Assembly: GCF_002260525.1 (NCBI RefSeq)
Contig: NZ_MRYI01000003.1
Location: forward strand, 434,001-498,000
Direction: 5' to 3'
DNA: 64,000 nt
Source of the DNA: Hahella sp. CCB-MM4
GTDB taxonomy: Bacteria; Pseudomonadota; Gammaproteobacteria; Pseudomonadales; Oleiphilaceae
Part shown: positions 45,997 to 61,084 of the stretch, one piece after another
Layout of the letters: each line of letters starts with the position of its first letter
Position numbering within the stretch: position 1 is the first letter of the stretch
Translations under genes and position numbers: made by a program
Notes under the pieces: generated by a model
The model's input: only the letters and a program-made list of their open reading frames with translations
The model's database searches: none
What the model was told of the DNA's origin: nothing

Positions 45997-46073
45997 CCCG
46001 TACAAAATAACAAAAGGATGGAAGTAATCACGATATGTAGTTAACAAACACAGCAGGGAGGGTGGTGTGCGAT

Positions 46074-46766
46074 ATGTATGTTGCAATAATTGATGATAAC
46101 AATGCGTTATGTGAACAGATGGATGTTCTTAAGAATCAAGGGAGGTATAACGTTGTTCATCTACCAACCATTGATGATTACTATAACTATTACATCAGCA
46201 GACCCAAAATTGACATTCTGATTATCTATCTTGCCATTCATAACACAACGGGAGTGGAACTAATCAGGCAACTCCATCAAACCAAGGGAATTGGTATTCT
46301 GCTCTATACCAATAGCAACAATCCAGACGAGCGTATACAAGGGCTTTATGCCGGTGCTGATGCATGCCTGACACTCGATAGCAGCACCAGTGAGTTAATC
46401 GCGGTAATAGAGAGTCTGTTACGGAGAATACACACAGAGCCAGACACATCCGACACGAATGATAACTCCACCTGGTTTCTTTGCCCATCCAAACGCACCT
46501 TACGCGCTGAAACGGGAACGGAAATAAAACTCACAGCAACAGAGGGCATTATCCTAGATGCACTTGCCAAGATTGCGCCATTGCCGGCATCAAGAAAAAC
46601 CTTAATAGAATCACTTAACCAGGACTTCCGCCACTACGATGAGCGACGTCTGGAAGCCTCAGTCAGTCGTTTACGAAAGAAACTAAACGTCGCCATGGCG
46701 GGAACAGAGAGCATTAAGGCGGCAAGGGGCCTTGGCTATCAGCTTCTACTTAATCTCGCCACTTAA
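46074..46766 (+). CDS. OmpR-type response regulator with degenerate (pseudo-)receiver
   Basis: About 230 residues from ATG at 46074, with GGAGG 10 nt upstream; a GTG at 46062 would sit on the ribosome site. The receiver starts VAIIDDNNALC with the acidic pair D7-D8, but the phospho-acceptor Asp is Tyr52 (DILIIYLAIHN) and the conserved Lys near residue 101 is Leu (GADACLTLD). The C-terminal winged helix is intact (KLTATEGIILDALA, LEASVSRLRKKL, IKAARGLGYQLL). It should therefore act without phosphorylation. No kinase gene is adjacent. As the first complete gene before the injection system, it is a likely regulator of it. Confidence 0.75.
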   Translation: MYVAIIDDNNALCEQMDVLKNQGRYNVVHLPTIDDYYNYYISRPKIDILIIYLAIHNTTGVELIRQLHQTKGIGILLYTNSNNPDERIQGLYAGADACLTLDSSTSELIAVIESLLRRIHTEPDTSDTNDNSTWFLCPSKRTLRAETGTEIKLTATEGIILDALAKIAPLPASRKTLIESLNQDFRHYDERRLEASVSRLRKKLNVAMAGTESIKAARGLGYQLLLNLAT

Positions 46767-47233
46767 CAAGTACACCAAGTTGAATAATGGTAACCGGCCA
46801 GACTAAAAAATTGGTATTCCCGTGGGTACCTGGATTAAGGCCAAGCTGTTGCTCCCGGCCTCCATCGCAGAACGCGGATTAATTGAACTCGAGATTAAAG
46901 AGACCGTGTTTGGCCGCTTACAAATAATGTATATGGGAAGTTATATCAGCTATTTTGTGAATAGCATTTTTACTTTATATATTCTTACCTTATATAAAAC
47001 AACAATATCTGATAACAATTAAATATAAGTGTAAATAAATTCCAAAAATGTCAGCCTTTGTCAGCCTATATGAAAACTTATTTGCTAGATTTTTAAGCTC
47101 AACAAGGAGCGAAGCGATTGTTTAATGAACTCTTATATACAGTGTCCCTGAAGATGGATTCTAAAAAAGAGTGATTAAAGAATCTTCGTTGATAAATCGT
47201 TTATAACCTGTCTAATAAATAGGGAATTTGAAT
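46767..47233. other. 467-bp AT-rich upstream region of the first paralog gene
   Basis: Only a 66-codon frame (46822-47022) of unconvincing composition is present and I do not call it. The right part is AT-rich and should hold the promoter of the gene at 47234. I could not place a -35/-10 pair with confidence: a TTGATA/TAATAA pair at 47189 and 47213 would leave no room for the ribosome site. Confidence 0.35.
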
Positions 47234-47875
47234 ATGACTACACCTCTATCTCTGAATAACAGACCAGTTGGACTGCCAGCTACTCAATCTGCAGATACCA
47301 CTAACCCAACGTCCACAGCAGATAGCAGCTTCTTTGTTATCCAACCAACAAATCTGGAAGCAACCTATCGCGTACAGAGTGGCGCTACCACACTGCCGTC
47401 ATCTATAGCGCCACCAATTCCAGCTGGCCAGCCTATCCCTTATCCAATCTCCACTCAGTGGTCTAACAACCGTGTAACCATTACCAACACCAGTGGTGAT
47501 AACAGTGCCAACTTCGACGTTGGTTACTTTGGTATGCCGGCAGTACTGCCTTACTGCAACGGCTCAAGCGCTAACATCCAGCAGTACGGCGTTGTCAGCT
47601 TCAGAACTCCTGCACAAACCCGCACCCTGCAAATCAAAGCCCGTGATCCCGCACTGGTAGCCATTCTGCAAGGCGCTAATCCTCCCGCATTTGTTGCTTT
47701 GAACATTGACAAGGGTGCACTAAGCACTCCTTACAAAAACCTGATAGATTCCAACCAGCTCTCCGCAGAATCAGACAATACCTACTCGGTATCTGCAAAC
47801 TTCTTTGGTGCAACTCTGACAGTGGTCAACGTCTCAATCGGTGCAAACACTGATGTAGAAGTTTCACTGTTCTAA
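47234..47875 (+). CDS. Unknown beta-rich protein, first of three tandem paralogs before the eCIS (no signal peptide)
   Basis: About 213 residues from ATG at 47234 with AGGGA 8 nt ahead. The N-terminus MTTPLSLNNRPVGLPAT is polar and has no export signal. The body is strand-rich and Thr/Asn/Ser-rich. The segment IPAGQPIPYPISTQW, then NNRVTITNTS and FDVGYFG aligns with the two following genes (LPRGEP...WP...NNAIRIES...GIYG and LPIGDP...WP...GAAITVTN...NFYG). A strong terminator directly follows, so it is mainly its own transcript. Lack of a signal beside exported siblings makes it a candidate eCIS-associated structural or cargo protein. No known family recognised. Confidence 0.7.
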   Translation: MTTPLSLNNRPVGLPATQSADTTNPTSTADSSFFVIQPTNLEATYRVQSGATTLPSSIAPPIPAGQPIPYPISTQWSNNRVTITNTSGDNSANFDVGYFGMPAVLPYCNGSSANIQQYGVVSFRTPAQTRTLQIKARDPALVAILQGANPPAFVALNIDKGALSTPYKNLIDSNQLSAESDNTYSVSANFFGATLTVVNVSIGANTDVEVSLF

Positions 47876-47888
47876 GTTACTGTAAAGC

Positions 47889-47919
47889 GGGCGTGCCTTA
47901 AGGTACGCCCCCTTTTTTT
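47889..47919 (+). terminator. Strong intrinsic terminator after the first paralog gene
   Basis: GGGCGTGCC-TTAA-GGTACGCCC folds into a 9-bp stem with one G-T pair, followed by CC and seven T. It lies 13 nt after the stop at 47875 and 20 nt before the next gene. It should insulate, or strongly attenuate read-through into, the second paralog and the injection-system genes. Confidence 0.85.
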
Positions 47920-47939
47920 GAATCAAGTAGCAGGCTACA

Positions 47940-48635
47940 GTGAAAGCAATAGGGAGTATTTTTTTACTACTAATGTGTCGCTTATGGACTGTGCAAGCCC
48001 TGGCCTCACAACCCCCGGCAACAGCCATTGATCTCATAATGAATGACACAGTAGCACTGCAGCTTGGGGAAACTGCGCAAGCGCTACAATCAAGTCGATA
48101 CCAGATTATTACGCTACAAAGCGTAAACAATAATTCGAGCACTATATCAATCAGATATGGTAGTAATCGTGAGGTTATTTCTCTGCCTCGTGGTGAACCA
48201 GTCATATGGCCTTATAGCCAAGACTTTAATAATAACGCGATTCGTATAGAGAGCACTCCGCCGGGAGAGGGTGTGACAAAAGTTGGAATTTACGGCCTGT
48301 CAGCTGAGACAACCTACCAGTTTCCCGACGGAGGTGGAACAGTCACTCTATCGCAATATGAATCGGTGAGTGAACAAACTCTAGCTAAGCTGAAAAGTTA
48401 CTACATATATTGTGCAAGTCCAGCACTCATTGCGTACGTTAATGGAAATAATAGCCCTGAATTTTTTGCTATTAGCACCAGCGAATCATCACATCCAAGT
48501 GCTTACAAATACATATCAGAAGATATTCAATACATAGAGAATGATCAATATCAATTCTCAAATAACTGGCAAGGAGTCTATGTGGCGCTCTTCAACCTAT
48601 CAGTAACTCCGAGCACGTGTACGATAAGTAACTAA
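47940..48635 (+). CDS. Exported beta-rich protein, second of three tandem paralogs
   Basis: 231 residues from GTG. A signal peptide (MKAIGSIFLLLMCRLWTVQALAS) predicts export. The core VISLPRGEPVIWPYSQDF, then NNAIRIES and VGIYG shares the LPxGxPxxWP...NNxIxI...YG pattern with its neighbours. Near the end, YIYCASPALIAYVNGNNSPEFFAIS parallels RDPALVAI...NPPAFVAL of the first paralog. The function is unknown. It starts 20 nt after the terminator. Confidence 0.65.
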   Translation: MKAIGSIFLLLMCRLWTVQALASQPPATAIDLIMNDTVALQLGETAQALQSSRYQIITLQSVNNNSSTISIRYGSNREVISLPRGEPVIWPYSQDFNNNAIRIESTPPGEGVTKVGIYGLSAETTYQFPDGGGTVTLSQYESVSEQTLAKLKSYYIYCASPALIAYVNGNNSPEFFAISTSESSHPSAYKYISEDIQYIENDQYQFSNNWQGVYVALFNLSVTPSTCTISN

Positions 48636-48658
48636 CCACCCACCATAGAGTGTCGTTA

Positions 48659-49384
48659 ATGCTAAACAATAAGAATAACAGTATGAAATCACTAGTTAAA
48701 ATGGCCGCTTTCACACTGGTGTTAACCCTTTATTGCGTTATTTCTGCAGCCGCATCATTGGAAGCAAATGGTAAAGCCGTTGTATTGCAAAGAGGCAACC
48801 AAGTCTCAGCCGAAACACTTAAGAGCCCGATGTTGCTTCTTATCAGTAATGTTTCATCCGCACTGGCGGGATTTGAAGTCAAATACAGCTTTGCATTCGG
48901 TGGGGACAGTAGTATACGCACCCTTCCAATCGGTGATCCCACTCCACAGCTATGGCCAAACAACTGGAACGGTGCAGCGATAACCGTTACCAACCTAAGC
49001 ATCTCGGATGAGGCGTCATTGCAGCTTAATTTTTATGGGATAACCACGCCACCCAACCTGCCCCTTAAGGATGATTTTAGTCCAATACCACTCGCACAGT
49101 ATCAGACAGCAGGGGGCAACATTGCTGCCAGCAGCGCCTATTTACAACTCAACGCCCCTTTTGAAGAGGCTATATTTGTCGTGCTCATCGGCAATGAGCT
49201 AATAACGTATACCGTCAACGGCGAAGCTGAATTTGATAACAATACAAATATAAAAATGACCAAAAACAACTCCATTGATCTTTCCCTGAATGACAAGCTG
49301 GGAAAAAGCTTATTAATCGTCAATGCATCAAAAACACCGACAACACAAGCCAATGTTTCATATAGGCAATTGGTAGGTAACTGA
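48659..49384 (+). CDS. Exported beta-rich protein, third of three tandem paralogs
   Basis: About 241 residues from ATG at 48659; ATG at 48692 would give a tighter signal peptide (MKSLVKMAAFTLVLTLYCVISAAA). The body contains RTLPIGDPTPQLWPNNW, then AAITVTNLS and LNFYG, aligned with the two upstream paralogs, and a similar final strand LLIVNASKTPTTQANVSY. It lies 23 bp after the second paralog and 37 bp before the sheath gene, so it probably shares a transcript with the injection system. Unknown family. Confidence 0.65.
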   Translation: MLNNKNNSMKSLVKMAAFTLVLTLYCVISAAASLEANGKAVVLQRGNQVSAETLKSPMLLLISNVSSALAGFEVKYSFAFGGDSSIRTLPIGDPTPQLWPNNWNGAAITVTNLSISDEASLQLNFYGITTPPNLPLKDDFSPIPLAQYQTAGGNIAASSAYLQLNAPFEEAIFVVLIGNELITYTVNGEAEFDNNTNIKMTKNNSIDLSLNDKLGKSLLIVNASKTPTTQANVSYRQLVGN

Positions 49385-49421: not shown

Positions 49422-51020
49422 ATGCCAACAACTTATAAAGCACCAGGAGTCTATATAGAAGAAGTACAAACTCCGCCAAGTATCGTCGGGGTCAGCACCT
49501 CTACTGCCGGTTTTGTGGGGTATTGCCAGACAACGAACTATACCAATGAGGCGAGACTTGTCACCAGTTTTACCGAATTCAGATCCAACTATGGAGGTTT
49601 TCTTCCCCCGACAACCAGCCTCCTAGCCTATTCCGTCTATGCATTCTTTCAACAAGGGGGGAGCCAATGCTATATCGTGAATATCAACGGTGCGACTCAA
49701 GGCGGTGGGACGCCTCCCCCTCAGCAGGGCGGCAACAGCCCAGGCACCAAGGCAACAAAGACATTCAACAACCAGATTGTCGTCACAGCAAAAGATGTGG
49801 GAACGAGCGGTAACAACATTACTGTTTCATATACCGGTACCACCTTCACCAAAAGCTTGAAGATAAACACCACGACTTATGGTGCAGGCCCATCAGTCAA
49901 TCTAAGCGACATCATGAACGAGGTAAATGGAAAATCTAAGCTGGTAACTATTGATTTGGCTAGTGGTGCACAAGGCAGTGATGAGTTAATAGAATTTGAT
50001 CAGGCAAATCTGGAAGGAGGTCAAGATCCCACAGGTGGCGGAGGTAGCGGTGGCAATACTCCACCACCGAGTGGTAACAATTTTACCTGGGCCACTCTTT
50101 ATGGTGGCTTGCAAAAATATGATGTTGTCGATGATGTTAATCTCATCCTCATACCCGATCTCACCCTAACCGACCTAACTGGGGAAAACCTGAAAACAGC
50201 TTTGACCCAAACATTCGACTACTGCAAAAACCGGGGAGACTGTTTCTTTATTGCAGATGTTCCCTCCGGCTATGCAAACTATAATACCCCTTCACAACTG
50301 CAAAGTTTTGTCGACGACATGACACTGCTTCCCTATGAGGGCTTTGGTGCGGTTTATTATCCCTATATCCAAATTTCCAATCCTGATCTCTATTATCCAC
50401 CGCTACCGGCAGGCAGCACACCACCAGCAAATCCTCCTGATCAATACATCTACCTTCCCCCCTCCGGTGCTGTGGCAGGTGCTTACGCCGCAACAGACAA
50501 CTCCGTGGGTGTTTTCAAACCGGCTGCGGGTGTCGTAGATGGGGTGTTGAACCTCGCATTAAACGAGCAGGTAAAGGTCACCCAAACCGACTTGGGCAAC
50601 CTGAACATGAACGGTATCAATGATATTCGTACGTTCAAGGGAGTTGGCGTCTGTATCTGGGGCGCACGGACAACAGCTGGTGATGCCAGCGAATGGAAAT
50701 ACCTCAATGTAAGGCGGCTGTTTATTTTTGTTGAGCAATCTATAAAGCAGAGCAGCAACTGGATTGTGTTTGAGCCCAACACCCCCAAACTATGGGGAAC
50801 AATTATCCGCAACATCACCGTATTTCTAACATCGCTATGGCGGGAAGGTGCATTTGCCGGTTCATCTGCTGAAGAGGCATTCTTTGTCAAAGTGGATGCT
50901 GAGAACAACCCACCGGAACAACGCAGAAATGGCGAGCTCGTTATAGAAATAGGAATCGCACCGGTATTTCCCGCTGAGTTCGTCATTATTCGCATCGGTC
51001 AAAAAACCCTGCCAGCCTAA
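49422..51020 (+). CDS. eCIS/phage-type contractile sheath protein (Afp2-4 homolog)
   Basis: 532 residues. The N-terminus YKAPGVYIEEVQTPPSIVGVSTSTAGFVG is diagnostic of eCIS sheath proteins. The C-terminal polymerising part is intact (NDIRTFKGVGVCIWGARTTA, WKYLNVRRLFIFVEQSIKQSSNWIVFEPN, LWREGAFAG, IGIAPVFPAEFVIIRIGQ). Residues ~109-200 form an inserted decoration domain bounded by Gly/Pro-rich linkers (GGGTPPPQQGG and GGGGSGGNTPPPSG). The sheath contracts around the tube to drive it through a target membrane. Only one sheath gene is present here, versus three in Afp. Confidence 0.95.
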   Translation: MPTTYKAPGVYIEEVQTPPSIVGVSTSTAGFVGYCQTTNYTNEARLVTSFTEFRSNYGGFLPPTTSLLAYSVYAFFQQGGSQCYIVNINGATQGGGTPPPQQGGNSPGTKATKTFNNQIVVTAKDVGTSGNNITVSYTGTTFTKSLKINTTTYGAGPSVNLSDIMNEVNGKSKLVTIDLASGAQGSDELIEFDQANLEGGQDPTGGGGSGGNTPPPSGNNFTWATLYGGLQKYDVVDDVNLILIPDLTLTDLTGENLKTALTQTFDYCKNRGDCFFIADVPSGYANYNTPSQLQSFVDDMTLLPYEGFGAVYYPYIQISNPDLYYPPLPAGSTPPANPPDQYIYLPPSGAVAGAYAATDNSVGVFKPAAGVVDGVLNLALNEQVKVTQTDLGNLNMNGINDIRTFKGVGVCIWGARTTAGDASEWKYLNVRRLFIFVEQSIKQSSNWIVFEPNTPKLWGTIIRNITVFLTSLWREGAFAGSSAEEAFFVKVDAENNPPEQRRNGELVIEIGIAPVFPAEFVIIRIGQKTLPA

Positions 51021-51033
51021 AAGGACTTAAATT

Positions 51034-51477
51034 ATGAGTACAGGAAAAAGAGTAGACCCGTATCAAAATTTTCGTTTCAGAGTGGAAATCGATGGTATTC
51101 AGATCGCTGGCTTTTCCGAAGTGACCATTCCGGATTCAACGACTGCGGATATCGAATATCGTGAAGGTACCTATCCACCCGGAACTCGCCACCTCTCCGG
51201 CCTTACCAGCTCGGGCTCGGTAAGCCTTAAACGAGGAATTACAGACAGCCTTGACCTTTATAAGTGGAAAAAGCAGGTAGAGACCACCGGTGCCGGCAGT
51301 GCCCGAAAAAATCTCTCGATTATCCTGATCGATGAGACCGGTGCGGATAAAAGCCGTTGGGACATCGTATACGCCTGGCCAACCAAATACGAAGCGGGCT
51401 CACTGGATGCCAAAGGCAATGATGTATTGATAGAGACCTTTGAGATTACTCACGAAGGTATCGAGCGGGTTAAATAA
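51034..51477 (+). CDS. eCIS inner tube protein (Afp1/Afp5-like), first copy
   Basis: 147 residues. Phage T4 gp19-type: DPYQNFRFRVEIDGIQIAGFSEVTIPDSTTADIEYREG, HLSGLTSSGSVSLKRGIT, WDIVYAWPTKYEAGSLDAKGNDVLIETFEITHEGI. It stacks as hexamers to form the conduit inside the sheath. It starts 13 bp after the sheath stop. Confidence 0.95.
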   Translation: MSTGKRVDPYQNFRFRVEIDGIQIAGFSEVTIPDSTTADIEYREGTYPPGTRHLSGLTSSGSVSLKRGITDSLDLYKWKKQVETTGAGSARKNLSIILIDETGADKSRWDIVYAWPTKYEAGSLDAKGNDVLIETFEITHEGIERVK

Positions 51478-51518
51478 CCCGCTCGCCTCTCCTATATAAG
51501 TTGAACAGGATAGATCTC

Positions 51519-51887
51519 ATGAGTGTTTTGCAAACCGAATATCAACTGACATTGCCCCGTGGATACATTGACAGCCACGGAAACCTTCACAAAGAGGTGA
51601 CCATGCGCCTGGCGACTGCTGGTGATGAGATACAGCCGATGAGGGATCCCCGGGTACAACAAAACCCCGGCTACCTTTCCGTCATTCTGTTATCCCGGGT
51701 TATCACCCGCCTCGGATCTCTTGATGCCATAAACACCCAGATCGTCGAGAACCTGTTCAGTGCTGATTTTGCCTTTTTACAGGACACCTATAACCGCATC
51801 AACCATAAGGATGGCATGGAGTTTTCAGCAGTCTGTCCACAATGCAAGCATGAGTTCGAGACGGAGATCAGCTTCTCGGGGGAATAG
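51519..51887 (+). CDS. Phage tail assembly chaperone-like protein (G-type), zero-frame product
   Basis: About 122 residues from ATG at 51519 (AGGA 9 nt ahead). Begins MSVLQTEYQLTLPRGYIDSH and has MRLATAGDEIQPMRDPRV, YLSVILLSRVITRLG, then a Cys4-like tail with CPQCKHEFE (one CxxC pair visible). The family is annotated as phage tail assembly protein in eCIS loci. The zero frame stops at TAG 51885, immediately after five G. A start-less ORF in the -1 frame continues for 67 codons, so a longer fused product of ~188 residues is predicted by ribosomal frameshifting. The tube-flanked position is where phages encode G/GT-type chaperones. Confidence 0.8.
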   Translation: MSVLQTEYQLTLPRGYIDSHGNLHKEVTMRLATAGDEIQPMRDPRVQQNPGYLSVILLSRVITRLGSLDAINTQIVENLFSADFAFLQDTYNRINHKDGMEFSAVCPQCKHEFETEISFSGE

Positions 51888-52084
51888 TATGCTATCCCCT
51901 TGAACGCCTGCACGAGGAGATAGCATTTTTAGGCTACTACCTGCATTGGAGCTACGAGAGCCTACTGGAAATGGAGCACACTGAACGACAGCAGTGGATA
52001 TCCCAAACCAGTGCGATAAATCGCAAGATCAATGAAGATCAGGATGCAACAAGCTCTTCAGCCTCCATACTTTCAATAACGTAA
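51854..52084 (+). CDS. Start-less -1 frame ORF, DUF6760-like, likely C-terminal extension of the chaperone (T part)
   Basis: In the -1 frame the reading is open from 51854 to TAA at 52084. It contains no ATG, GTG or TTG before the conserved-looking block YPLERLHEEIAFLGYYLHW and ...MEHTERQQWISQTSAINRKINE. This block resembles small helical proteins annotated DUF6760 in eCIS and related tail loci. An internal ATG comes only after that core. Expression is therefore most simply explained by frameshifting from the upstream gene. The ribosome site and start of the second tube gene follow directly. Confidence 0.65.
   Translation, partial: VRDGDQLLGGIVCYPLERLHEEIAFLGYYLHWSYESLLEMEHTERQQWISQTSAINRKINEDQDATSSSASILSIT
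51876..51887 (+). other. Predicted -1 ribosomal frameshift site
   Basis: Zero-frame codons are TCG-GGG-GAA-TAG with five consecutive G at 51878-51882. Slippage back by one base on GGG lets the ribosome read GGA-ATA-GTA-TGC-TAT and enter the downstream ORF, avoiding the TAG. The site is a single-codon slip, not a perfect X-XXY-YYZ heptamer. A downstream stimulatory structure was not established. Confidence 0.55.
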
Positions 52085-52097
52085 GCGGGGTACAGCT

Positions 52098-52562
52098 ATG
52101 TCAACGATTCAAGGGTTAATTAATCAGGGCTTATCCCACCTTATTGATCCTTTCCGTAACTTTAACTTTGTCGTTGAAGTGGATGGCATATTGGCAGCGG
52201 GTTACAGCGAGGTATCAGGACTGGGAATAGAGCTGGAGGTAGAGCGACGAAGGTTCGGTGGTGAAAATCATACGGAATATAAATTTATCAAGCAGGCCAC
52301 ATATACCGACCTGGTATTGAAGCAGGGCGTCTCACAATATGACTATATGTGGAATTGGTTTCAAAGCACTGTAGAAGGAAAGATACAGCCTCGCAGCGGC
52401 AGTATCTATCTTTATGATCTAGGGTCAAAAAACCTTAAATACTGGAGTTTTTATCAGGCCTACCCAATTCGCTGGGATGGTCCCAGCCTGGATGCTAAAG
52501 GCAACGATATCGCTACTCATAGCCTTACCCTGACCTACCGAGAGCTGAAAAAGGGTGTGTAA
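52098..52562 (+). CDS. eCIS inner tube protein, second copy (Afp5-like, TIGR02241 type)
   Basis: 154 residues. LIDPFRNFNFVVEVDGILAAGYSEVSGLGIELEVERRRFGGENHTEYKFIKQATYTDLVLKQGV is typical of the second tube paralog. The C-terminal KYWSFYQAYPIRWDGPSLDAKGNDIATHSLTLTYREL is shared with the first tube. This copy probably forms the adaptor ring to the baseplate, as known for Afp5/Pvc5. Its stop abuts the next ATG. Confidence 0.95.
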   Translation: MSTIQGLINQGLSHLIDPFRNFNFVVEVDGILAAGYSEVSGLGIELEVERRRFGGENHTEYKFIKQATYTDLVLKQGVSQYDYMWNWFQSTVEGKIQPRSGSIYLYDLGSKNLKYWSFYQAYPIRWDGPSLDAKGNDIATHSLTLTYRELKKGV

Positions 52563-54188
52563 ATGATCAGCGTGATTAAGCCCATGTCACCTGTTAGCTG
52601 CTTGCGCGGAGATTCGGCTGCTGGCTTGTCCACCGTCAGCAATGGGGCGCTACTCCCCTTGAAATGCCACTTGAAGGACATCCACACCTATTCAGATGCC
52701 ATTATCAACCGCTACCAGGGACGGCAACAGATTGTCTCCTCATACCCGGAGATGATCTTTCACTATCCACGCAAAATGATACTGAACAGCCTAACCCAAC
52801 GCCATACCTACATCGACAAACAGACCCACATTCACAACCTCATTTCCCCTCTGCATCAGGTCGTCAACAAACTTGTCTTGCTGCAAAGTGGTCGTACTCG
52901 TCTCCCGCTATCCAGCGGCAATCTATCGCTTGCAGAAAGCGGCACCAGAGCAATCCCTGGGCGCGTCTCGGTAAAATGGTTAGGTAAAGCGTTTCAACCG
53001 CCCGTCCCTCGCTCGTATCGACACGATTCGTTCCATAACCCGAAGTGGAACCAGGCACTACCGAGCACACTCATGAGGAAGAATCCGCCATCCTCTACCT
53101 CAATTCGCTTCACGCCTCTGCTACAACTGGCAAGTCGCATTGCGCTCAAACTTCTTTCTCAATACCGGGATAAAGTGGCAGGTAACCGCCATACCATAGA
53201 TTCAACTAGCGGCAGTCAATCCGCAAAGAGAGCCCCCAAAGCCCAGCAGCCAATAATCAGCCGCCCGTTGATACTCAATACCTTTAATAAGGATAGCCGG
53301 CATCACACTTCATATCTCTCAAGTTTGACTGACTACCTAAGCCGAAGAAACGAATCCCCTGGTGGGGATATTCTGGTTAAACAGTACGACAAGCAGTATC
53401 AGGACATTCGCCAATATCTGCCCTATACCCTATCCCGACATATGGACCCACACCTCCATGCACTCGTTGCGAAAAAGCATAGTATGGCGGACAAATATCT
53501 GCTAAAGAGCGATAGATCCGCCAACGAAGCCTCTTCGCAGGCAATCAGCACGCACATTGGGCAGATCCTGGACAAGCGCAACTTTCTAGCCACTAGTCAC
53601 TTTCTGGCCACAAATCACTTTCTGGCCACTAAAGGTACGATTCCCAACGTCCCCGAGCTCCAGCCTCCCACCGGGGAAAAAGGAAACTACCACTATTTAC
53701 GGAAGCACTTAACGCACCTGATACCACTTACAACCCGAAACAGCTCAACCACCATGACCGGAGGGGCGACCGCAGGAATATACTCCCCCCCGATGATCGT
53801 CCCACGAATGAGATTAGCGCTATCGCCGCAGCCACAATTGCCCGCAGGCAGCCAGTTGGAGACGACAGGCAAAAGCACCACGCCCACTATCCGCCTGCTT
53901 GATAAAACCAAGCAGGAGTTTATCTTCCGTAAAAAGGAGAGAGGCCCCGAGAGCAAGGCGCAGACACCCCGTGACAAACAGAGCGCGCTACGCACCCAAG
54001 AGTATAGCGGTGAAAAAGAGGCCAACATACCACCGCAGATAACACGCCAGGCGGCCCCACCTCAAGTGGTTAAGAGTCATCAGTTACCAGAGTTCACTCA
54101 GTTTCAGTTTCGTCAACTGGCAGATGAGGTATATAAGCTGATTAACCAGCGCCTGCGCTTTGAAAAACGCCGAAGAGGATTGCTCTGA
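52563..54188 (+). CDS. 541-aa basic eCIS protein of unknown function in the Afp6 position
   Basis: The start touches the tube stop (TAA-ATG) and the last base overlaps the LysM gene start, so the gene is embedded in the operon. The protein is Arg/Lys/His/Ser-rich, poor in acidic residues over most of its length, and low in regular hydrophobic core. Residues ~341-358 are three hexapeptide repeats of FLATxH type, encoded by three 18-bp repeats at 53583-53636. The last 30 residues form a helix, FRQLADEVYKLINQRLRFEKRRRG, a motif I recall at the ends of other eCIS proteins in this slot. In Afp and PVC this slot is filled by a very small protein. Its length and charge suggest a disordered scaffold. 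Confidence 0.75.
   Translation: MISVIKPMSPVSCLRGDSAAGLSTVSNGALLPLKCHLKDIHTYSDAIINRYQGRQQIVSSYPEMIFHYPRKMILNSLTQRHTYIDKQTHIHNLISPLHQVVNKLVLLQSGRTRLPLSSGNLSLAESGTRAIPGRVSVKWLGKAFQPPVPRSYRHDSFHNPKWNQALPSTLMRKNPPSSTSIRFTPLLQLASRIALKLLSQYRDKVAGNRHTIDSTSGSQSAKRAPKAQQPIISRPLILNTFNKDSRHHTSYLSSLTDYLSRRNESPGGDILVKQYDKQYQDIRQYLPYTLSRHMDPHLHALVAKKHSMADKYLLKSDRSANEASSQAISTHIGQILDKRNFLATSHFLATNHFLATKGTIPNVPELQPPTGEKGNYHYLRKHLTHLIPLTTRNSSTTMTGGATAGIYSPPMIVPRMRLALSPQPQLPAGSQLETTGKSTTPTIRLLDKTKQEFIFRKKERGPESKAQTPRDKQSALRTQEYSGEKEANIPPQITRQAAPPQVVKSHQLPEFTQFQFRQLADEVYKLINQRLRFEKRRRGLL
53583..53636 (+). repeat. Three 18-bp in-frame repeats within the 541-aa gene
   Basis: Three copies of the type TTTCTGGCCACTAATCAC run head to tail and encode FLATSH-FLATNH-FLATKG. 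Length is a multiple of three so copy-number change keeps the frame. Confidence 0.85.
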
Positions 54189-54820
54189 TGGTCAGTAAAG
54201 CCACTATCATCAATGTCGATAAAGGTAATGAAAAGCTCGAGGTGATGTTCAACCCAGAGGAGTATGAAGTCATTACCAGTGCTAAATACTCACAGAGCAA
54301 TGGCAACCTGCAATACAACCGTAGCGACCTGGAAGACTTTAGCGTTTCCCTGTTCTTTGATAGCTATGCCGAGGGCAGCGACATTCGTGATTACACCAAG
54401 AAAGTAGCTGATCTGGCGATTCCAACCATATCGGGAACGAATACTAAGCGTCCCCCGATATGCCTATTCAGTTGGGGCGGTTTCAGCTACCGGGGCGTTG
54501 TCAGCAAGGTTCAACAAAAGTTCACCATGTTTCTCTCTACCGGTGTACCGGTGAGAGCAGAGTTACAGGTGACGTTTACCTCCTGGCCCACAGACAAAGA
54601 GGAGAGTGACTACTCGGGCAAAGAGGCCTGCGTCAAATTCTGGGAGGTTAAATCCAGTGATAGACTCGATATTATCGCTAATGAAACCCTCAACAACCCT
54701 GCCCTATGGAGCCTGATAGCCGAGACCAATCGTATTGAGGACCCGTTAACGTTTCCCACAGCCAAGGACCTGGGAAGACAGTTATTGATCCCTGATATTG
54801 CCAATAAGGAGCCGCTGTAA
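54188..54820 (+). CDS. LysM-type baseplate/hub-associated protein (Afp7-like)
   Basis: 210 residues. N-terminal part MFNPEEYEVITSAKYSQSN and FDSYAEGSDIRDYTKKVADLA resembles T4 gp53-like eCIS proteins. The C-terminal LysM-like domain is WEVKSSDRLDIIANETLNNPALWSLIAETNRIEDPLTFPTAKDLGRQLLIP. It probably joins the tube to the baseplate hub. One-base overlap with the previous gene. Confidence 0.9.
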   Translation: MVSKATIINVDKGNEKLEVMFNPEEYEVITSAKYSQSNGNLQYNRSDLEDFSVSLFFDSYAEGSDIRDYTKKVADLAIPTISGTNTKRPPICLFSWGGFSYRGVVSKVQQKFTMFLSTGVPVRAELQVTFTSWPTDKEESDYSGKEACVKFWEVKSSDRLDIIANETLNNPALWSLIAETNRIEDPLTFPTAKDLGRQLLIPDIANKEPL

Positions 54821-54822
54821 CC

Positions 54823-55863
54823 ATGACGACACGTCAGATAGAAGTCCCAAATTTTGACATCTATCTCAACGGTAGCAAGCTGGCCAATGATGTCAAAAAA
54901 TACATTTCCTATGTGATGGTTAAGGATGACCTTGATATGCCCTCCTCCTTTAGCTTTCGCTATAGCACCGTCAATCTGTTGAAAGGGACATGGCAGGGAA
55001 TCGACCTGGATATGTTTGCCATTGGAGATCGTATCGACATATACCTGGGCATGGATAAAACCAAGGAGCTTATCTCCGGCTCAATCGACAGTTTAAACGT
55101 CACTTTCGGTGATGAATCCAGCGTGGAGATAAGCGGCTTCTCGTGGCTCCACAAGCTGACCTTCGGCACCATCACCAAGCAATATACGGAAAAGTCCGAT
55201 AGCGAAATCGCATCGGAAATCGCTACCCGTGAAAACCTTGCAGCAGAAGTGGACAGCACTGATACCCGATACGACAGCGTCATCCAGGATAACCAAAGTA
55301 ACTTCCAGTTCCTGCTGGAACGGGCGAAGCGTATCAGTTATGAGCTTGGCGCCACGGAAAAATCCCTTATTTTCAGACAATCACAGGAGAACAAATCTCC
55401 GGTTACAACGCTGAAATTCGGCATCAACCTATTTGACTTTTCCGTCACCGTTAACAATTTGAATCAGGGCAGCTCTGTCGAGGTGCGTGGTTGGGATATT
55501 TTCAAGAAAGAGGAGTTCTCAGGAAGTGCCAGTGAAGGAGATGAGGATAGCAAAATGGGTAAGTCTGAGAGCGGCTTCAAACTCTCCAGCGGCAAATCCC
55601 CCATCGTTTTACAAGCTTCCAATCCGGAAGATATCAGTAATGCCAAGAGTTTAGCCCGAGACAAATACAACGAGCTGCTACTTGATTTTATTACAGGCAA
55701 CGGGCAGTGCCTGGGCAATGTTGATATTCGAGCCGGAAAAACCATCGAAGTCCAGGGCATAGGAAAGAAGTTCAGCGGCATTTACTACATCAGTTCCGCT
55801 ACCCATACGCTTAACAGTGATTCTTATCAAACCCAGTTTGATGTGAAAAAGACAGCAATATAA
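54823..55863 (+). CDS. Baseplate hub protein, phage gpD-type (N-terminal half of Afp8)
   Basis: 346 residues. PNFDIYLNGSKLANDVKKYISYVMVKDDLDMPSSFSFRY, IGDRIDIYLGMDKTKELISGSI and FSWLHKLTFGTITKQYTEKSDSEIASEIA are typical of the late control gene D/VgrG N-terminal fold. RAGKTIEVQGIGKKFSGIYYISSATHTLNSDSYQTQFDVKKTAI closes the protein. In Afp and PVC the hub and spike are fused in one protein; here they are separate genes 10 bp apart. Confidence 0.92.
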   Translation: MTTRQIEVPNFDIYLNGSKLANDVKKYISYVMVKDDLDMPSSFSFRYSTVNLLKGTWQGIDLDMFAIGDRIDIYLGMDKTKELISGSIDSLNVTFGDESSVEISGFSWLHKLTFGTITKQYTEKSDSEIASEIATRENLAAEVDSTDTRYDSVIQDNQSNFQFLLERAKRISYELGATEKSLIFRQSQENKSPVTTLKFGINLFDFSVTVNNLNQGSSVEVRGWDIFKKEEFSGSASEGDEDSKMGKSESGFKLSSGKSPIVLQASNPEDISNAKSLARDKYNELLLDFITGNGQCLGNVDIRAGKTIEVQGIGKKFSGIYYISSATHTLNSDSYQTQFDVKKTAI

Positions 55864-55873
55864 GGCAAATAAG

Positions 55874-56551
55874 ATGGATGAACTTCTCAACTCGGAACTG
55901 ACAGATCAACCACTGATGCATGGCGTTATCAATGCACTGGTTACCGATAACAAAGATCCCAAAAATCTGGCCAGGGTAAAGGTACGCTACCCATTGCTGA
56001 ACAATACTCTGGAATCAGACTGGATACGCATTGCCTGCCTAATGTCAGGAAAAGACAGAGGCAGTTATTTTCTCCCAGAGGTAGGTGATGAAGTGTTGGT
56101 TGCCTTTCAGTTTGGTGATATCAACACCCCTTACATTATCGGTGCACTATATAACGGTGTGGATACCCCACCGCAAAACAATCAAGACGGTGAAAATAAT
56201 ATTCGTGAGATCAAATCCCGCAGCGGGCATGTTATACGCTTTGACGACAAATCCTCCGCGGAAAAGATTGAAATTATCGATAAAACAACCAACAACAAAA
56301 TAGTGATTACCAGCAACGACAACACCATTAGCATCAGCAGTGATAAGGATATTAAGCTCGAAGCACCAAAGGGAACCGCCTCCATCAATGCCAAAGATAT
56401 CGCGCTTAACGGCACCAGCTCCATTTCACTGAAGGGAGGACAAATCAAGCTAAACGCTGACACCTCACTCACTATGGAATCGGGAGCTACCACTGAAATG
56501 AAAGCAGGAGCAACAGTGACAATCAAGGGCGTTACTATCAACCTTAACTAA
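55874..56551 (+). CDS. Baseplate spike protein, gpV/gp5-type (C-terminal half of Afp8)
   Basis: 225 residues. An OB-fold domain (MHGVINALVTDNKDPKNLARVKVRYPLL, SDWIRIACLMSG, FLPEVGDEVLVAFQFGDINTPYIIGALYNG) is followed by EIKSRSGHVIRFDDKSSAEKIEI and a repetitive beta-helix needle (ISSDKDIKLEAPKGTASINAKDIALNG...). It forms the trimeric puncturing spike under the tube and carries the PAAR tip encoded next. Confidence 0.95.
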   Translation: MDELLNSELTDQPLMHGVINALVTDNKDPKNLARVKVRYPLLNNTLESDWIRIACLMSGKDRGSYFLPEVGDEVLVAFQFGDINTPYIIGALYNGVDTPPQNNQDGENNIREIKSRSGHVIRFDDKSSAEKIEIIDKTTNNKIVITSNDNTISISSDKDIKLEAPKGTASINAKDIALNGTSSISLKGGQIKLNADTSLTMESGATTEMKAGATVTIKGVTINLN

Positions 56552-56610: not shown

Positions 56611-57006
56611 ATGGGGATGCCAGGTGCAAAGCAAGGAGATCAGGTGGTGGCAGTCGATACACATATCGTACTGATACCATCGCCAGGCGGGCCCATTCCG
56701 ACTCCGCTCCCCAATCCGTTCAATGGCATTATCAATGAAAGCCTGAGCAGCAATGTCAAAATTATGGGAATGCCGGCAGCTACTGTGGGCTCGGTCGCTA
56801 ATAACATCCCGCCACATATTCCTGTCGGAGGCCCCTTCCAGACACCACCCAGCAACCGTGGCAAGATCATCATGGGCAGCGCAACGGTCTTTATCAATAA
56901 CAAAATGGCCGCTCGTGCCGGTGACACCGCCCTGACCTGTAATGATCCCACAGAACTACCCATTGGCACGGTTATCGCGGTCAGTACAGTATTAATTGGT
57001 GGTTAA
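56611..57006 (+). CDS. PAAR-like spike tip protein (Afp10-like)
   Basis: 131 residues; AAGGAG 7 nt before ATG. MGMPGAKQGDQVVAVDTHIVLIPSPGGPIPTPLPNPFNGII, GMPAATVGSVANNIPPHIPVGGPFQTPPSNRGKIIMGSATVFINNKMAARAGDTALTCNDP show the short PAAR-type repeats and the metal-site His/Cys residues (DTHI, HIPV, TCND). It sharpens the spike tip and can carry effectors. Here no C-terminal effector extension is present. Confidence 0.92.
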   Translation: MGMPGAKQGDQVVAVDTHIVLIPSPGGPIPTPLPNPFNGIINESLSSNVKIMGMPAATVGSVANNIPPHIPVGGPFQTPPSNRGKIIMGSATVFINNKMAARAGDTALTCNDPTELPIGTVIAVSTVLIGG

Positions 57007-57008
57007 CG

Positions 57009-57404
57009 GTGGATAAAAACTTTCTAGGCAATGGTGTCAACTATCCCTTCAGCTTTAGCAAAGGGATAGTAAAAAGTTCCGAAGGCGATGATCTTATCGC
57101 CCAATCCATCATGCAGATACTAAGCACCCGCAAAGGCGAGCGGGTGATGCGCCCGGATTATGGCTGTGGCATAAACGAGTTGGTCTTTGAGGCCAATAAC
57201 ACCGCATTGGCGACACAATTTGAGTTCCTGGTGCAGGATGCCATCGGCAAGTTTGAGCCTCGGGTGGAGTTGACATCAGTCAGAGTGGAAAAGGATGCGC
57301 ACAACGGCAATCAGCTCAACATATGCCTGGAATATATTGTTAAAGCCGTTAACTCATCCAGAAACCTGGTTTATCCCTTCTACTTGCAAGGTACCTCGTC
57401 GTGA
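57009..57404 (+). CDS. Baseplate wedge protein, GPW/gp25 family (Afp9-like)
   Basis: 131 residues from GTG, 2 bp after the PAAR stop. LGNGVNYPFSFSKGIVKSSEGDDLIAQSIMQILSTRKGERVMRPDYGCGINELVFEANNTAL contains the family's GERxMRPDYGxxI motif. gp25-type proteins initiate sheath assembly on the baseplate. It overlaps the next gene by 4 bp (GTGA). Confidence 0.95.
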   Translation: MDKNFLGNGVNYPFSFSKGIVKSSEGDDLIAQSIMQILSTRKGERVMRPDYGCGINELVFEANNTALATQFEFLVQDAIGKFEPRVELTSVRVEKDAHNGNQLNICLEYIVKAVNSSRNLVYPFYLQGTSS

Positions 57405-60400
57405 ATCAGGACCCGGATCAGTGGCCGCTATCGCCAGGTAAAGTGGATCCGAGAAGCACTGCGGATATTTACCAGCAGGCGCTTGCCCTGGCGAAAATCT
57501 ACTGTCCACAATGGAGCAACATCAACCAGCTTGAGGTGGATGAAGAGGACATCGGTGTTGTCCTGTTAAAACTGTTTGCGCAGCTAAGCAATACCTTATC
57601 ACGGCGCTTCAACCTCATCCCCCATAAACAGCTATTAAGCTTTTATCAATTTCTTGGTCTGCAAGAGCAACTCCCCAAACCGGCACAGGTTCTTCTTTCC
57701 TATGAACTCTCGACCGATGTTACTCAGCCCGTAGTCATTCCCACGGGTTCGCAAGTTGCTTCCGCCAAAGACCAAAAGGTTATCTATGAAACCATAACCC
57801 CGCTTAATGCCACCAATATCCCGCTAATGGCAGCGTATACCATTTCCCCCGTTGATGATGGCTATATCGATTTGAGTGGCGTCGTCCTATCCAGGAATCA
57901 GTTGTTCAGCATTTTTGGCAGCAGCACCCAATACAAAGAAGAAATGCCGGAAAGCAGCATCGTGCCCTTCACCCATACACTCCATTTAAGCAGCAAATAT
58001 TTTGACTACCACACCCCTGCCGCCCTGGTATTGAATATTACCTTCGCAGCCCCTTTTGATGAGCAGATAGCGAGTGATATTGATACGCTTTTTCGCTGGT
58101 TTATCTATGACGACAAGGGAGAGCGCCAGTTCCTGAATCCGGCGCCGCTGACCACAGTATCCGGCTCACTTTTGTCCCTTAGCTTTACCAAGTTACTTAT
58201 TCCTGCAGCCATCGTAGAGGGACAACTCTGCAACTGGCTGGGTTGTCAGCTAAACCAAGATAAGATTCCCCTGCTTGATCAGCTGTCATCTCAACAGAGC
58301 AAGCAACAGAGCAGGCAACAGAGACATGCCAGCCTGGTAGGGCCGGAACAACCTCTGCTCGCACAAATCACGGATATAAAATTTGACCTTAGCGCCAGCA
58401 ATCTTGCCTGGGACAAATTGTTTGTCAATGACGGGGAGGTTAGTGCACAAAAAGGCTTCTACATCTTTGGAAATAATCCAGCGGTAATGGACACCTTCTA
58501 CTTCGGCAATAATGAAGCCTTCATCGAGGGATTTGAAGTCACCCTCTCCATGAACGTTAATCCGGGAAAAGGCAGTGATGACCTGAAGCTGGCATGGCAA
58601 TATTGGGACGGCGAAGAGTGGCTTGATCTGCAAAGCAATACCACCGTCGAAAAATATGATAATGGCGCATGGCAACCCATCCCAAACCAGCAGATGATCT
58701 CCTTTGAGAGCGACACCACCTCTGTGAGCGATAGTACCTCGGCAACAGAGATAACCATTCGTTTCATCTGCCCGGCAATTGAGCAAACGAAAATAAACGA
58801 AGTGGCAAGTCGCTGGATAAGAATAAGGATCTTACAAGGAGACTACGGTAGCCGCTATGTGCTAACCCCCATCAATCTGGATGAACAACAACAGTTGGGG
58901 AACGACCTGAATTCAGAGCTGGTCAAACTAAGCAACAACTGGCAATCAGATGTGATACCGGACCAGAGTAACTTTCTACTCTATGAGTTGATGAAGCTGG
59001 CGAATTTTGAGAACAAAAACGTATCCTTGGAGAAAGGCTTCTTCTCTGCGCTTACCGACCTCATTACCGGCGATCCCTTAAAAGCACTGGAAAATCTACT
59101 GAAGAAATCTTCTGTCGATGATCTCTTCAACTACGACAAGGTTGTCACGGTCAAGGGGGCAGAAAATATCCTCAATGACTCCGGACTGAACAAGGTTAAT
59201 CCCTCGCTGGACAGCAACATGGAGAAATACCTCTCCGAGAACATAACACTGGAGACCATTCTCAAATACCTTTCTGAACAAGGGTGGACCATCGCCAGCA
59301 AGAAAGACTGCGTCCCCCCGTACATGAATCAGATGACACTACAGTATAAAAAGAGCGCTGCAACGATCTCTGACACCATCACAAATAATAATTTTACGAT
59401 CAAGGTTAACCCACCATTGCCCTTCTATCCGTTTTACAAAATCTGTGGGACACCGCTTTTTTATCTCGGTTTTAGCGGCCTGCCGTGTGAACAATTCTGG
59501 ACAGCATACTTCTCTTTCTCCATTCCCAATCCGTCAAAACCGACCATTAATACCCAGAACTATGACGTACTCTATGAATACTATTCAAATCAGGGCTGGG
59601 AATCCCTGCCTGTCGACATCGACCAGACGGAAGGGTTAATAAAAAGCGGTATTATTACCTGGAAGCTACCAGACGCGGCCACTCCTCTCACCCTCTTTGC
59701 ACTGGATAAGCCGCTGTGGTGGGTTCGATTTACCTTAGTACTCAGGCCCTTGCCAAAAGTAGATGACAGTGTAGAAGAGGCTGGAGATAACAAAGATAAA
59801 AAGTCTCAGGCGGAAGCACCTATCGGCATTGAGATGAAAGGCATCTATCCCAACTCAGTGTGGGCGGAGGGCTATACAACAGAATACAACAAGGTTTTAG
59901 GGACCAGTAACAAGACCGCCAATCAACAATTTCAAATCACCCCCTATCTGGTTTACCCCGAACAAAAGATAGAGATCAGAGAGAGCACCTATCCCGAACC
60001 CGACCAAGCTAAAATCATCAAGCTGGAGGAAGGTGCTGATGCGATCCGTATCGTCGACAACGGAGGGGTGCAGGAGATATGGGTATGCTGGCATGCCGTA
60101 CCGAATCTAAGGCTCTCCACTCCTAAGTCAAGGCACTACACCATTGACTACGAAACCGGCACCATTCAGTTTGGCAACGGCGTACAGGGAATGATCCCCC
60201 CAGGATTGAAAAACAACATTGTCGCCGCAGAGTTTCGCCGTGGGAACAACAATGCGGATATGCCAAGTGCAAACCAGCTCACTAAGCTGCTTAAAAACAT
60301 CCCGAACGTAAAATCAGTCACAAATTATGAGGATGCCTACGGAAAACAGGGCCAGGAAACGATAGAGCAATTCCTGGAGCGCATTCCCAAAAACATAAAA

Positions 60401-61084
60401 ACCCGGGACCGGGCGGTAACATTAGAGGACTTTCAATTACTGGCGCTTCAGTCGACCAATCTGGTTGCCCGGGCCAGCTGTTATCAGAATAAAACCACCC
60501 CCCACTATATCGAGGTGATTATTGTTCCAAGTCACCAGTACGGCAGCTACTACCCAGGTGCCCAGCTAACGGAAAACGTACTCAATTATCTTCAGGATAG
60601 GGCCCTGCCGACACTCAAGCAGCAGATTATCATCCGTGCCCCCGACTACCAGAAGATAGATGTCCATGCCACCATCGTCATCCAAAGCGGATTTACCCAA
60701 ACATCGGTTTACTCTGACCTGCAAGCCGCGCTCAGCCAGTTTTTTGATCCGGTGGAAGGGCAATACGATAGCAAGGGATGGGACTTCGCCTCGACAATTT
60801 ACACCTCACAGGTAAACGGAGTAATCCTCAACGTACCAGGTGTTACCGGAGTCTATTCATTGAAAGTGCTCCCCTATTTGGCTGATAGCGGTACAACATC
60901 ACCGGTACCTGAGAATGGCCCAGGCCCTGCTAATGATCCGCAGATAGATGACGACAACAGCCACGGACAAACACTAAACTTTATCAAACTCAACAGCAAA
61001 ACTCTGCCGCTGCCTGGCAACTTCGACATCCAGTTTGAAGAGCCTGCTGCACCACCTGCACAGGGAGGTGGCAATGGCGATTGA
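57401..61084 (+). CDS. Large baseplate assembly protein (Afp11-like, TIGR02243-type)
   Basis: 1227 residues from GTG overlapping the gp25 stop. N-terminal ADIYQQALALAKIYCPQWSN and DIGVVLLKLFAQLSNTLSRRFNLIPHKQLLSFYQFLGLQ are typical. The middle has long beta-rich insertions with YWDGEEWLDL and YEYYSNQGWESLPVD repeats. The C-terminal baseplate-J-like part holds RDRAVTLEDFQLLALQST, VARASCYQNKTTPHYIEVIIVP and VNGVILNVPGVTGVYSLKVLPY. It forms the baseplate wedge. Its size is at the large end for the family, mainly by the central insertions. Confidence 0.92.
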   Translation: MNQDPDQWPLSPGKVDPRSTADIYQQALALAKIYCPQWSNINQLEVDEEDIGVVLLKLFAQLSNTLSRRFNLIPHKQLLSFYQFLGLQEQLPKPAQVLLSYELSTDVTQPVVIPTGSQVASAKDQKVIYETITPLNATNIPLMAAYTISPVDDGYIDLSGVVLSRNQLFSIFGSSTQYKEEMPESSIVPFTHTLHLSSKYFDYHTPAALVLNITFAAPFDEQIASDIDTLFRWFIYDDKGERQFLNPAPLTTVSGSLLSLSFTKLLIPAAIVEGQLCNWLGCQLNQDKIPLLDQLSSQQSKQQSRQQRHASLVGPEQPLLAQITDIKFDLSASNLAWDKLFVNDGEVSAQKGFYIFGNNPAVMDTFYFGNNEAFIEGFEVTLSMNVNPGKGSDDLKLAWQYWDGEEWLDLQSNTTVEKYDNGAWQPIPNQQMISFESDTTSVSDSTSATEITIRFICPAIEQTKINEVASRWIRIRILQGDYGSRYVLTPINLDEQQQLGNDLNSELVKLSNNWQSDVIPDQSNFLLYELMKLANFENKNVSLEKGFFSALTDLITGDPLKALENLLKKSSVDDLFNYDKVVTVKGAENILNDSGLNKVNPSLDSNMEKYLSENITLETILKYLSEQGWTIASKKDCVPPYMNQMTLQYKKSAATISDTITNNNFTIKVNPPLPFYPFYKICGTPLFYLGFSGLPCEQFWTAYFSFSIPNPSKPTINTQNYDVLYEYYSNQGWESLPVDIDQTEGLIKSGIITWKLPDAATPLTLFALDKPLWWVRFTLVLRPLPKVDDSVEEAGDNKDKKSQAEAPIGIEMKGIYPNSVWAEGYTTEYNKVLGTSNKTANQQFQITPYLVYPEQKIEIRESTYPEPDQAKIIKLEEGADAIRIVDNGGVQEIWVCWHAVPNLRLSTPKSRHYTIDYETGTIQFGNGVQGMIPPGLKNNIVAAEFRRGNNNADMPSANQLTKLLKNIPNVKSVTNYEDAYGKQGQETIEQFLERIPKNIKTRDRAVTLEDFQLLALQSTNLVARASCYQNKTTPHYIEVIIVPSHQYGSYYPGAQLTENVLNYLQDRALPTLKQQIIIRAPDYQKIDVHATIVIQSGFTQTSVYSDLQAALSQFFDPVEGQYDSKGWDFASTIYTSQVNGVILNVPGVTGVYSLKVLPYLADSGTTSPVPENGPGPANDPQIDDDNSHGQTLNFIKLNSKTLPLPGNFDIQFEEPAAPPAQGGGNGD

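Follow-up and report, generated by a model that had tools for sequence, protein, structure and literature searches.

The gene for a tail assembly chaperone (TAC) homologue and the DUF6760 open reading frame (ORF) that follows it very probably constitute one gene expressed by programmed -1 ribosomal frameshifting, as far as comparison of related sequences can tell. The first-pass annotation had predicted such an event in an eCIS, and this prediction is supported in silico by the phase of the two frames, by a slippery heptamer lying in that phase and by the missing start codons in related loci. The window (the whole stretch of 64,000 nucleotides that was analysed) holds genes for a sheath, two gp19-type tubes, CIS_tube, spike, PAAR, gp25 and baseplate J in one cluster, and we therefore identified the locus as a contractile injection system. 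The TAC/DUF6760 pair sits between the two tube genes, and the features are as follows.

49422..51020, + strand: eCIS sheath (Phage_sheath_1C, 1.9e-14)
51034..51477, + strand: first tube protein (Phage_T4_gp19, 2.6e-40)
51519..51887, + strand: zero-frame gene, TAC homologue of 122 aa (PHROG 508, Phage_TAC_7)
51854..52084, + strand: -1 frame ORF of 76 codons, no ATG/GTG/TTG before its core
51878..51884, + strand: slippery heptamer G_GGG_GAA in zero-frame phase (from the sequence)
51885..51887, + strand: UAG stop of the zero-frame gene, immediately 3' of the heptamer (from the sequence)
51889..51926, + strand: stem-loop after the site, proposed stimulator (folding against shuffles)
51893..52054, + strand: DUF6760 domain (PF20546, E 3e-11, 43.7 bits, cut-off 27)
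52098..52562, + strand: second tube protein (Phage_T4_gp19, 2.2e-36)
54188..54820, + strand: CIS_tube protein, tube initiator type (PF19266, 2.1e-25)
54823..55863, + strand: hub-like protein (YQBQ, 2.3e-7)
55874..56551, + strand: spike OB-domain protein (Phage_base_V, 1.9e-24)
56611..57006, + strand: PAAR spike tip (PAAR_motif, 6.7e-17)
57009..57404, + strand: gp25-like baseplate protein (GPW_gp25, 2.3e-25)
57401..61084, + strand: Baseplate J-like protein (Baseplate_J, 9.5e-13)

The end of the zero-frame gene, earlier read as TCG-GGG-GAA-TAG, is found in the window sequence as TTC TCG GGG GAA TAG. The five G that were said to stand directly before the stop occupy 51878-51882, and two A, which complete the GAA codon, intervene. 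As had been described, the -1 frame is open from 51854 to 52084, carries no ATG, GTG or TTG ahead of its core (the first in-frame ATG lies within the core, at 51971) and ends beside the second tube gene. The part translated after the shift would be 51884-52081, and its 66 residues added to the 122 of the zero frame give a predicted fusion of 188 residues, the length that had been estimated. The zero-frame protein matched PHROG 508, 'tail assembly chaperone', with an E value of 7.2e-10 and Pfam Phage_TAC_7 with an E value of 5.3e-5 (23.6 bits, slightly under the 25-bit cut-off), and on these profile matches we regard the first ORF as homologous to tail assembly chaperones. The -1 ORF matched DUF6760, which Pfam labels a domain of unknown function, above the Pfam cut-off.

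Related loci were collected through a tblastn search of plasmids for DUF6760 (34 records, 12 of them fetched), an alignment search of genome contigs (at least 588 matches, from which the 80 best were taken) and of viral contigs (21 loci), and a search with the Pfam model in two genome samples of 146 and 398 genomes. Among the 121 sequences collected, 118 had a DUF6760 domain match and 114 junctions were retained. L003, L006 and L008 were dropped for want of a domain match, L007 and L009 as weak matches without a credible chaperone, and L061 and L070 for apparent draft indels; in L082 the chaperone is truncated at the contig end and the frame was assigned by hand. Ten named phyla, one of them archaeal, are represented among the 114 junctions: Myxococcota (15), Cyanobacteriota (13), Chloroflexota (13), Bacillota (11), Actinomycetota (7), Pseudomonadota (5), Planctomycetota (3), the archaeal Methanobacteriota (3), Nitrospirota (2) and Thermomicrobiota (1). 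Another 4 are bacterial with no phylum given, and for 36 no origin is listed.

The first-pass annotation had proposed that the junction be aligned across eCIS loci for conservation of the G-run, the -1 phase and the lack of start codons. The phase stood up: DUF6760 lies in -1 phase relative to TAC in 113 of the 115 loci with a credible match to the TAC profile (which included one wrong seed, a spurious L075 ORF, omitted for the held-out set below), and the two others look like draft indels. The lack of starts held in part. No ATG, GTG or TTG precedes the core in 58 of 114 loci, the window included, and in 82 none occurs beyond a point 12 nt upstream of the TAC stop. The remaining 56 have some in-frame ATG, GTG or TTG before the core (ATG in 25), and coupled initiation may occur there.

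Slippery heptamers were defined as GGGGGNN or XXXYYYZ, in phase and no more than 45 nt from the chaperone stop. By this definition 110 of the 114 junctions contain one, compared with 31 and 18 for the two remaining phases, and synonymous recoding gave a mean of 15.4 and a maximum of 23 among 114 (200 replicates), which confirmed that the heptamer exceeds chance. The commonest were GGGGGAA (49), GGGGGAG (17), GGGGGGA (11), GGGGGGG (9), TTTTTTG (7) and TTTTTTA (7); rarer ones included GGGAAAG (L004), GGGCCCT (L042, L044) and CCCGGGG (L106), and no in-phase heptamer was found in L023, L071, L116 and L119. The type varies between lineages (G_GGG_GAR, G_GGG_GGN, T_TTT_TTA, T_TTT_TTG, G_GGA_AAG, G_GGC_CCT) with the phase kept. 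These swaps to other known heptamers, which the earlier prediction did not contain, preserve slipperiness and phase and not sequence, a pattern accounted for neither by a ribosome-binding site nor by constraint on the peptide. One property of the window's heptamer counts against frameshifting: the A-site slip from GAA to GGA leaves a G.U pair in the middle.

A second feature beyond the earlier prediction is a conserved stem-loop after the site. In the window it consists of 8 bp, one C.A mismatch and then 5 bp, with a minimum free energy (MFE) of -16.0 kcal/mol (z -4.75); none of 200 dinucleotide shuffles was as stable, and codon-preserving shuffles gave a z of -3.5 (p 0.01). The conserved core stem starts 6 nt past the heptamer, within the spacing of about 5-9 nt known for -1 frameshift structures, and the window's extended stem starts 4 nt past it. 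The stem-loop beat codon-preserving shuffles at p<=0.05 in 72 of 92 eCIS loci (56 of them at p 0.01) and was not significant in the other 20, including L004 and the Streptomyces and Embleya type. It was significant in 0/8 Oscillospiraceae, 0/3 Lachnospiraceae and 0/11 viral loci, whose slip regions are T-rich, the division into these groups having been made after the junctions were seen.

Codons NGC TAC CCC 3' of the site are kept as bases though the first amino acid varies: tyrosine is written TAC in 86 of 103 cases at the site against 391 of 670 tyrosine codons elsewhere in both ORFs, and proline CCC in 80 of 103 against 179 of 497. They pair with GAG GAG GTA GC of the E-E-V-A codons. Of the pairs in the resulting 12-pair structure 82.3% are standard; its covariation score is 0.213 versus 0.136 when shuffled (0/500), and slid versions of it scored lower; the conserved core domain adds to the sequence conservation around the stem-loop. 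The best covarying pair joins the third base of the tyrosine codon with the first base of a valine, isoleucine or methionine codon (C-G 76, T-A 15, C-A 9, C-T 2, A-A 1, T-G 0), the window being a T-A case; in the held-out set the same pair was C-G in 39, C-A in 9 and T-G in 3, with T-A absent. The covariation supports the stem, but a tree-corrected test, which is underpowered, gave only 3 and 4 supported independent pairs. Consensus folding of all 103 aligned sequences returned no pairs, and RNAalifold on 88 sequences returned no structure with default scoring and the stem-loop only with RIBOSUM scoring. An Rfam search of 51400-52200 found no known element up to an E value of 1.

In 64 of 103 non-viral loci the 3' arm of the stem-loop contains a perfect Shine-Dalgarno sequence, AGGAGGU; the window has AGGAGAU (51915-51921). 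Pairing of this arm with the ribosome may add to pausing.

The rules derived from the first set were then applied to held-out loci, obtained with the DUF6760 Pfam model from 244 cyanobacterial, 246 actinobacterial and 251 Chloroflexota genomes (phyla inferred from centre genomes). The search gave 64 loci, of which 4 had already been seen and 60 were new; clearing removed junctions identical to the first set (4/64), and close relatives may remain among the rest. A chaperone match was present in 59 of the 60, and in 57 of these 59 the second ORF was adjacent and in -1 phase. An in-phase heptamer was found in 53 of the 57 adjacent -1 junctions (15 and 12 of 57 in the other phases), and 23 were start-less. 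The stem-loop was significant in 47 of 54 loci, namely the 53 with a heptamer and the indel-bearing L153. The four without a heptamer (L169, L171, L174, L175) are all actinobacterial, and in each an ATG overlaps the stop; L172, likewise lacking a heptamer, has a GTG start of its own. The stem-loop is significant in just one of these five own-start loci. Since the five heptamer-less actinobacterial loci mostly lack the stem-loop as well, we take the signal to have been replaced in them rather than the rule to have been broken. The held-out loci follow the first-set rules, with the exceptions forming a coherent alternative, except for L170, which has no chaperone match, an in-phase G_GGG_GGC together with an ATG, and a stem-loop p of 0.57. 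The own-start actinobacterial loci are in themselves a natural experiment on the need for the fusion.

On the proposed mechanism, most ribosomes would translate the 122-residue chaperone and terminate at UAG. A minority would pause at the stem-loop and slip one base back on G_GGG_GAA, the P-site pairing going from GGG to GGG and the A-site pairing from GAA to GGA, to yield the 188-residue TAC-DUF6760 fusion as the minor product. By analogy with lambda gpG/gpGT, the TAC part might attach to the tape-measure or initiator complex, and tube subunits might be recruited by the DUF6760 part, both products acting as assembly chaperones that leave the finished particle. Slippage itself, the ratio of the products, the fusion product and the G/GT-like function are what we infer from the signals and the analogy.

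The function is where a competing reading retains some weight. DUF6760 could be structural, for example plug-like in the manner of Alg6/Afp6 in AlgoCIS, with a real frameshift but no T-like chaperone; such a role is compatible with frameshifting and competes with the proposed function only. The domain has no known function, and Alg6 of AlgoCIS is, according to the available part of PMC8894135, a small protein essential for assembly. We nevertheless consider a structural role unlikely: the locus lies between two tube genes, the order in the viral contig L121 is phage-like, and the DUF6760 profile matched no PDB chain at E<=1 save an antibody chain (E 0.49), taken as chance. The TAC profile likewise had no credible PDB match, the best (E 0.84) being an unrelated protein. 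The lack of PDB matches for either profile fits, as weak evidence, chaperones absent from the finished particle.

Frameshifting itself would be dispensable if ribosomes finishing TAC restarted on DUF6760 and made a separate protein. A -1 phase is the outcome of a stop-overlapping ATGA or GTGA start, ATGA occurs in the four held-out loci named above (L169, L171, L174, L175), and plasmid records of Nostoc, Rhodococcus and Streptomyces list DUF6760 as a separate gene. We judge termination-reinitiation to be very improbable as the general explanation, given that more than half of the first-set junctions, the window included, offer no start before the core, that the heptamers, needless for reinitiation, are swapped for other known ones in the same phase, and that most held-out loci that have their own start but lack a heptamer show no significant stem-loop. 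A second ORF with its own start had been named in the first-pass annotation as evidence against frameshifting; it does occur, in 4 of 57 adjacent held-out junctions, in L172 and in seven of eight Oscillospiraceae loci.

These Oscillospiraceae (L023, L048, L071, L074, L075, L082, L095, L099) may differ from the frameshift rule. An ATG or GTG stands at the DUF6760 core in seven of the eight, after GGGGG in six of these seven, which makes a separate start plausible there, and L099 has no start and the heptamer T_TTT_TTG. Some 150 nt separate their T-rich site from the core that follows, and in L023 the distance from stop to core is 113 nt. An in-frame fusion was tried as an explanation and rejected, as TAC lies in the zero frame and the -1 frame holds a linker of about 50 residues to the core; the coding test of this linker was weak (third-position excess, p 0.036 and 0.038 for two disjoint pairs).

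Less probable still is near-cognate initiation at AUA 51884, which aligns with the ATG of the ATGA loci, with the G-run serving as ribosome binding site. GGGGGA resembles a Shine-Dalgarno core and a single base change in the stop codon converts ATG to ATA, yet the spacing from GGGGGA to the codon is zero. GGGGG occurs within 60 nt before the core in 7/8 Oscillospiraceae and is absent from that interval in three Lachnospiraceae, L004, L042, L044, L106 and 11/11 first-set viral loci. We rejected this explanation because the codon after the site varies across loci (ATC, ATA, GTA, GTC, AGT, AGC and GCG among others). A sequencing error or decayed gene, in which one missing base splits a true single-frame gene, has practically no probability left, since the indel-like exceptions in a few draft genomes (L061, L070, L153) stand against the conserved -1 step in nearly all first-set and held-out loci, which refutes it.

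Frameshifting thus remains the preferred reading, and we consider it likely that the heptamer and stem-loop form one ancient recoding cassette, a conserved core feature in a large share of all cellular contractile injection systems (CIS) of bacteria and archaea, which would fix the ratio of two chaperones from one mRNA and which one actinobacterial lineage would have replaced with an overlapping ATG. If true, few frameshift stem-loops outside phage and transposon genes would be more widely conserved. Within the 244 cyanobacterial genomes, CIS_tube was present in 24/24 genomes with DUF6760, and DUF6760 in 24/31 genomes with CIS_tube. A covariance model of site and stem-loop, which also includes conserved coding sequence, gave one strong match in the window's genome, the junction itself (E 9e-14; next 0.6). 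In 398 Pseudomonadota genomes it gave two matches, the window junction and L125, which overlaps DUF6760 locus L005 of genome G392; G308 (L004, GGGAAAG), the third DUF6760-bearing genome above the cut-off among the 398, was missed.

Tail chaperone frameshifting in phages has long been established; the new elements here are its predicted occurrence in injection systems at large, DUF6760 as the partner, and a stem-loop that is conserved. The heptamer of lambda gpG/gpGT is G_GGA_AAG and the frameshift motif of P2-type E/E+E' is T_TTT_TTG. As in lambda, a chaperone ORF with a heptamer near its end is followed by a start-less -1 ORF in a tail gene cluster, and the relative L004 has the lambda heptamer in the same phase. 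Unlike lambda, the window system lies in a cellular injection-system locus, between two tube genes, has DUF6760 as the second part and combines G_GGG_GAA with a conserved stem-loop after the site. The available part of PMC5009743 describes G_GGA_AAG as highly shift-prone in E. coli, the first part of gpG/gpGT as binding the tape measure and the second as recruiting the tube protein, with neither in the virion. The contractile tail is shared with P2, whose motif is found in 6/8 Oscillospiraceae eCIS and some viral relatives, whereas the window and most of the eCIS loci compared use a G-type site and stem-loop. Closest in sequence are actinobacteriophage frameshifts: in the accessible portion of the PRFect paper (PMC10885494), every one of about a thousand SEA-PHAGES frameshift motifs in one class is GGGGGAA, identical to the window's, and the genes are nearly all tail assembly chaperones. 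Those are phages and the present systems are injection systems, the window DUF6760 having no tblastn match in 50,697 phage records.

Viral relatives are nonetheless present in the collection. In the viral contigs L112-L122, one ORF carries two chaperone domains and a DUF6760-like sequence lies in the -1 frame, with a slip site that is mostly T_TTT_TTA/G. The order in L121 is sheath, tube, TAC/DUF6760 and a weak tape-measure match (phrog_58, E 0.0027), as in phages. Its tandem TAC ORF (L121:5213-5995) also matches the T4 baseplate family PF12322, a likeness to T4, whose tail assembly chaperones are gp26/gp51; the title of a 2022 paper by Vladimirov attributes to T4-like phages a mechanism different from frameshifting. 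The window DUF6760 sought in viral contigs and the L117 sequence sought in phage records gave no match of use.

That eCIS had not been described as using frameshifting agrees with the literature searched, in which we found no description of a chaperone frameshift in eCIS; most subscription papers lay outside the search and the absence is thus unproven. The word 'frameshift' does not occur in the eCIS papers PMC8894136, PMC8213781, PMC10066040 and PMC8894135, the available parts of PMC13222765, PMC8718954 and PMC8528098 hold no such description, and a literature search for DUF6760 returned nothing. Injection systems of the eCIS kind are being engineered for protein delivery. If the frameshift is true, what is annotated as one gene plus a 'domain of unknown function' would be a single chaperone gene with two products, and any transplanted cluster or codon-optimised rebuild in which the site is disturbed would be short of a component. 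DUF6760 would gain a testable role, eCIS assembly would be tied to the lambda G/GT mechanism, and hundreds of natural variants would be available for comparing both parts of the signal, the heptamer and the stem-loop.

Several minor observations concern the neighbouring genes and the chaperone. The 541-aa ORF at 52563-54188, between the second tube gene and CIS_tube, had no NCBIfam or PHROG match and a best Pfam E value of 0.14; it is a candidate tape measure or cargo. The interval from a response regulator (46062-46766) to the sheath contains three ORFs (47228-49384); Pfam and PHROG gave no match for the first, and Pfam, NCBIfam and PHROG gave none for the second and third. TAC residues 106-109 form a near-invariant CPxC motif shortly upstream of the slip site; of a zinc site, if there is one, no second half is evident. 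More than one chaperone-matching ORF was present in 14 held-out loci, and in the cyanobacterial L147, L149, L145, L150, L155, L157 and L159 two chaperone ORFs stand in tandem, with only the second reading into DUF6760.
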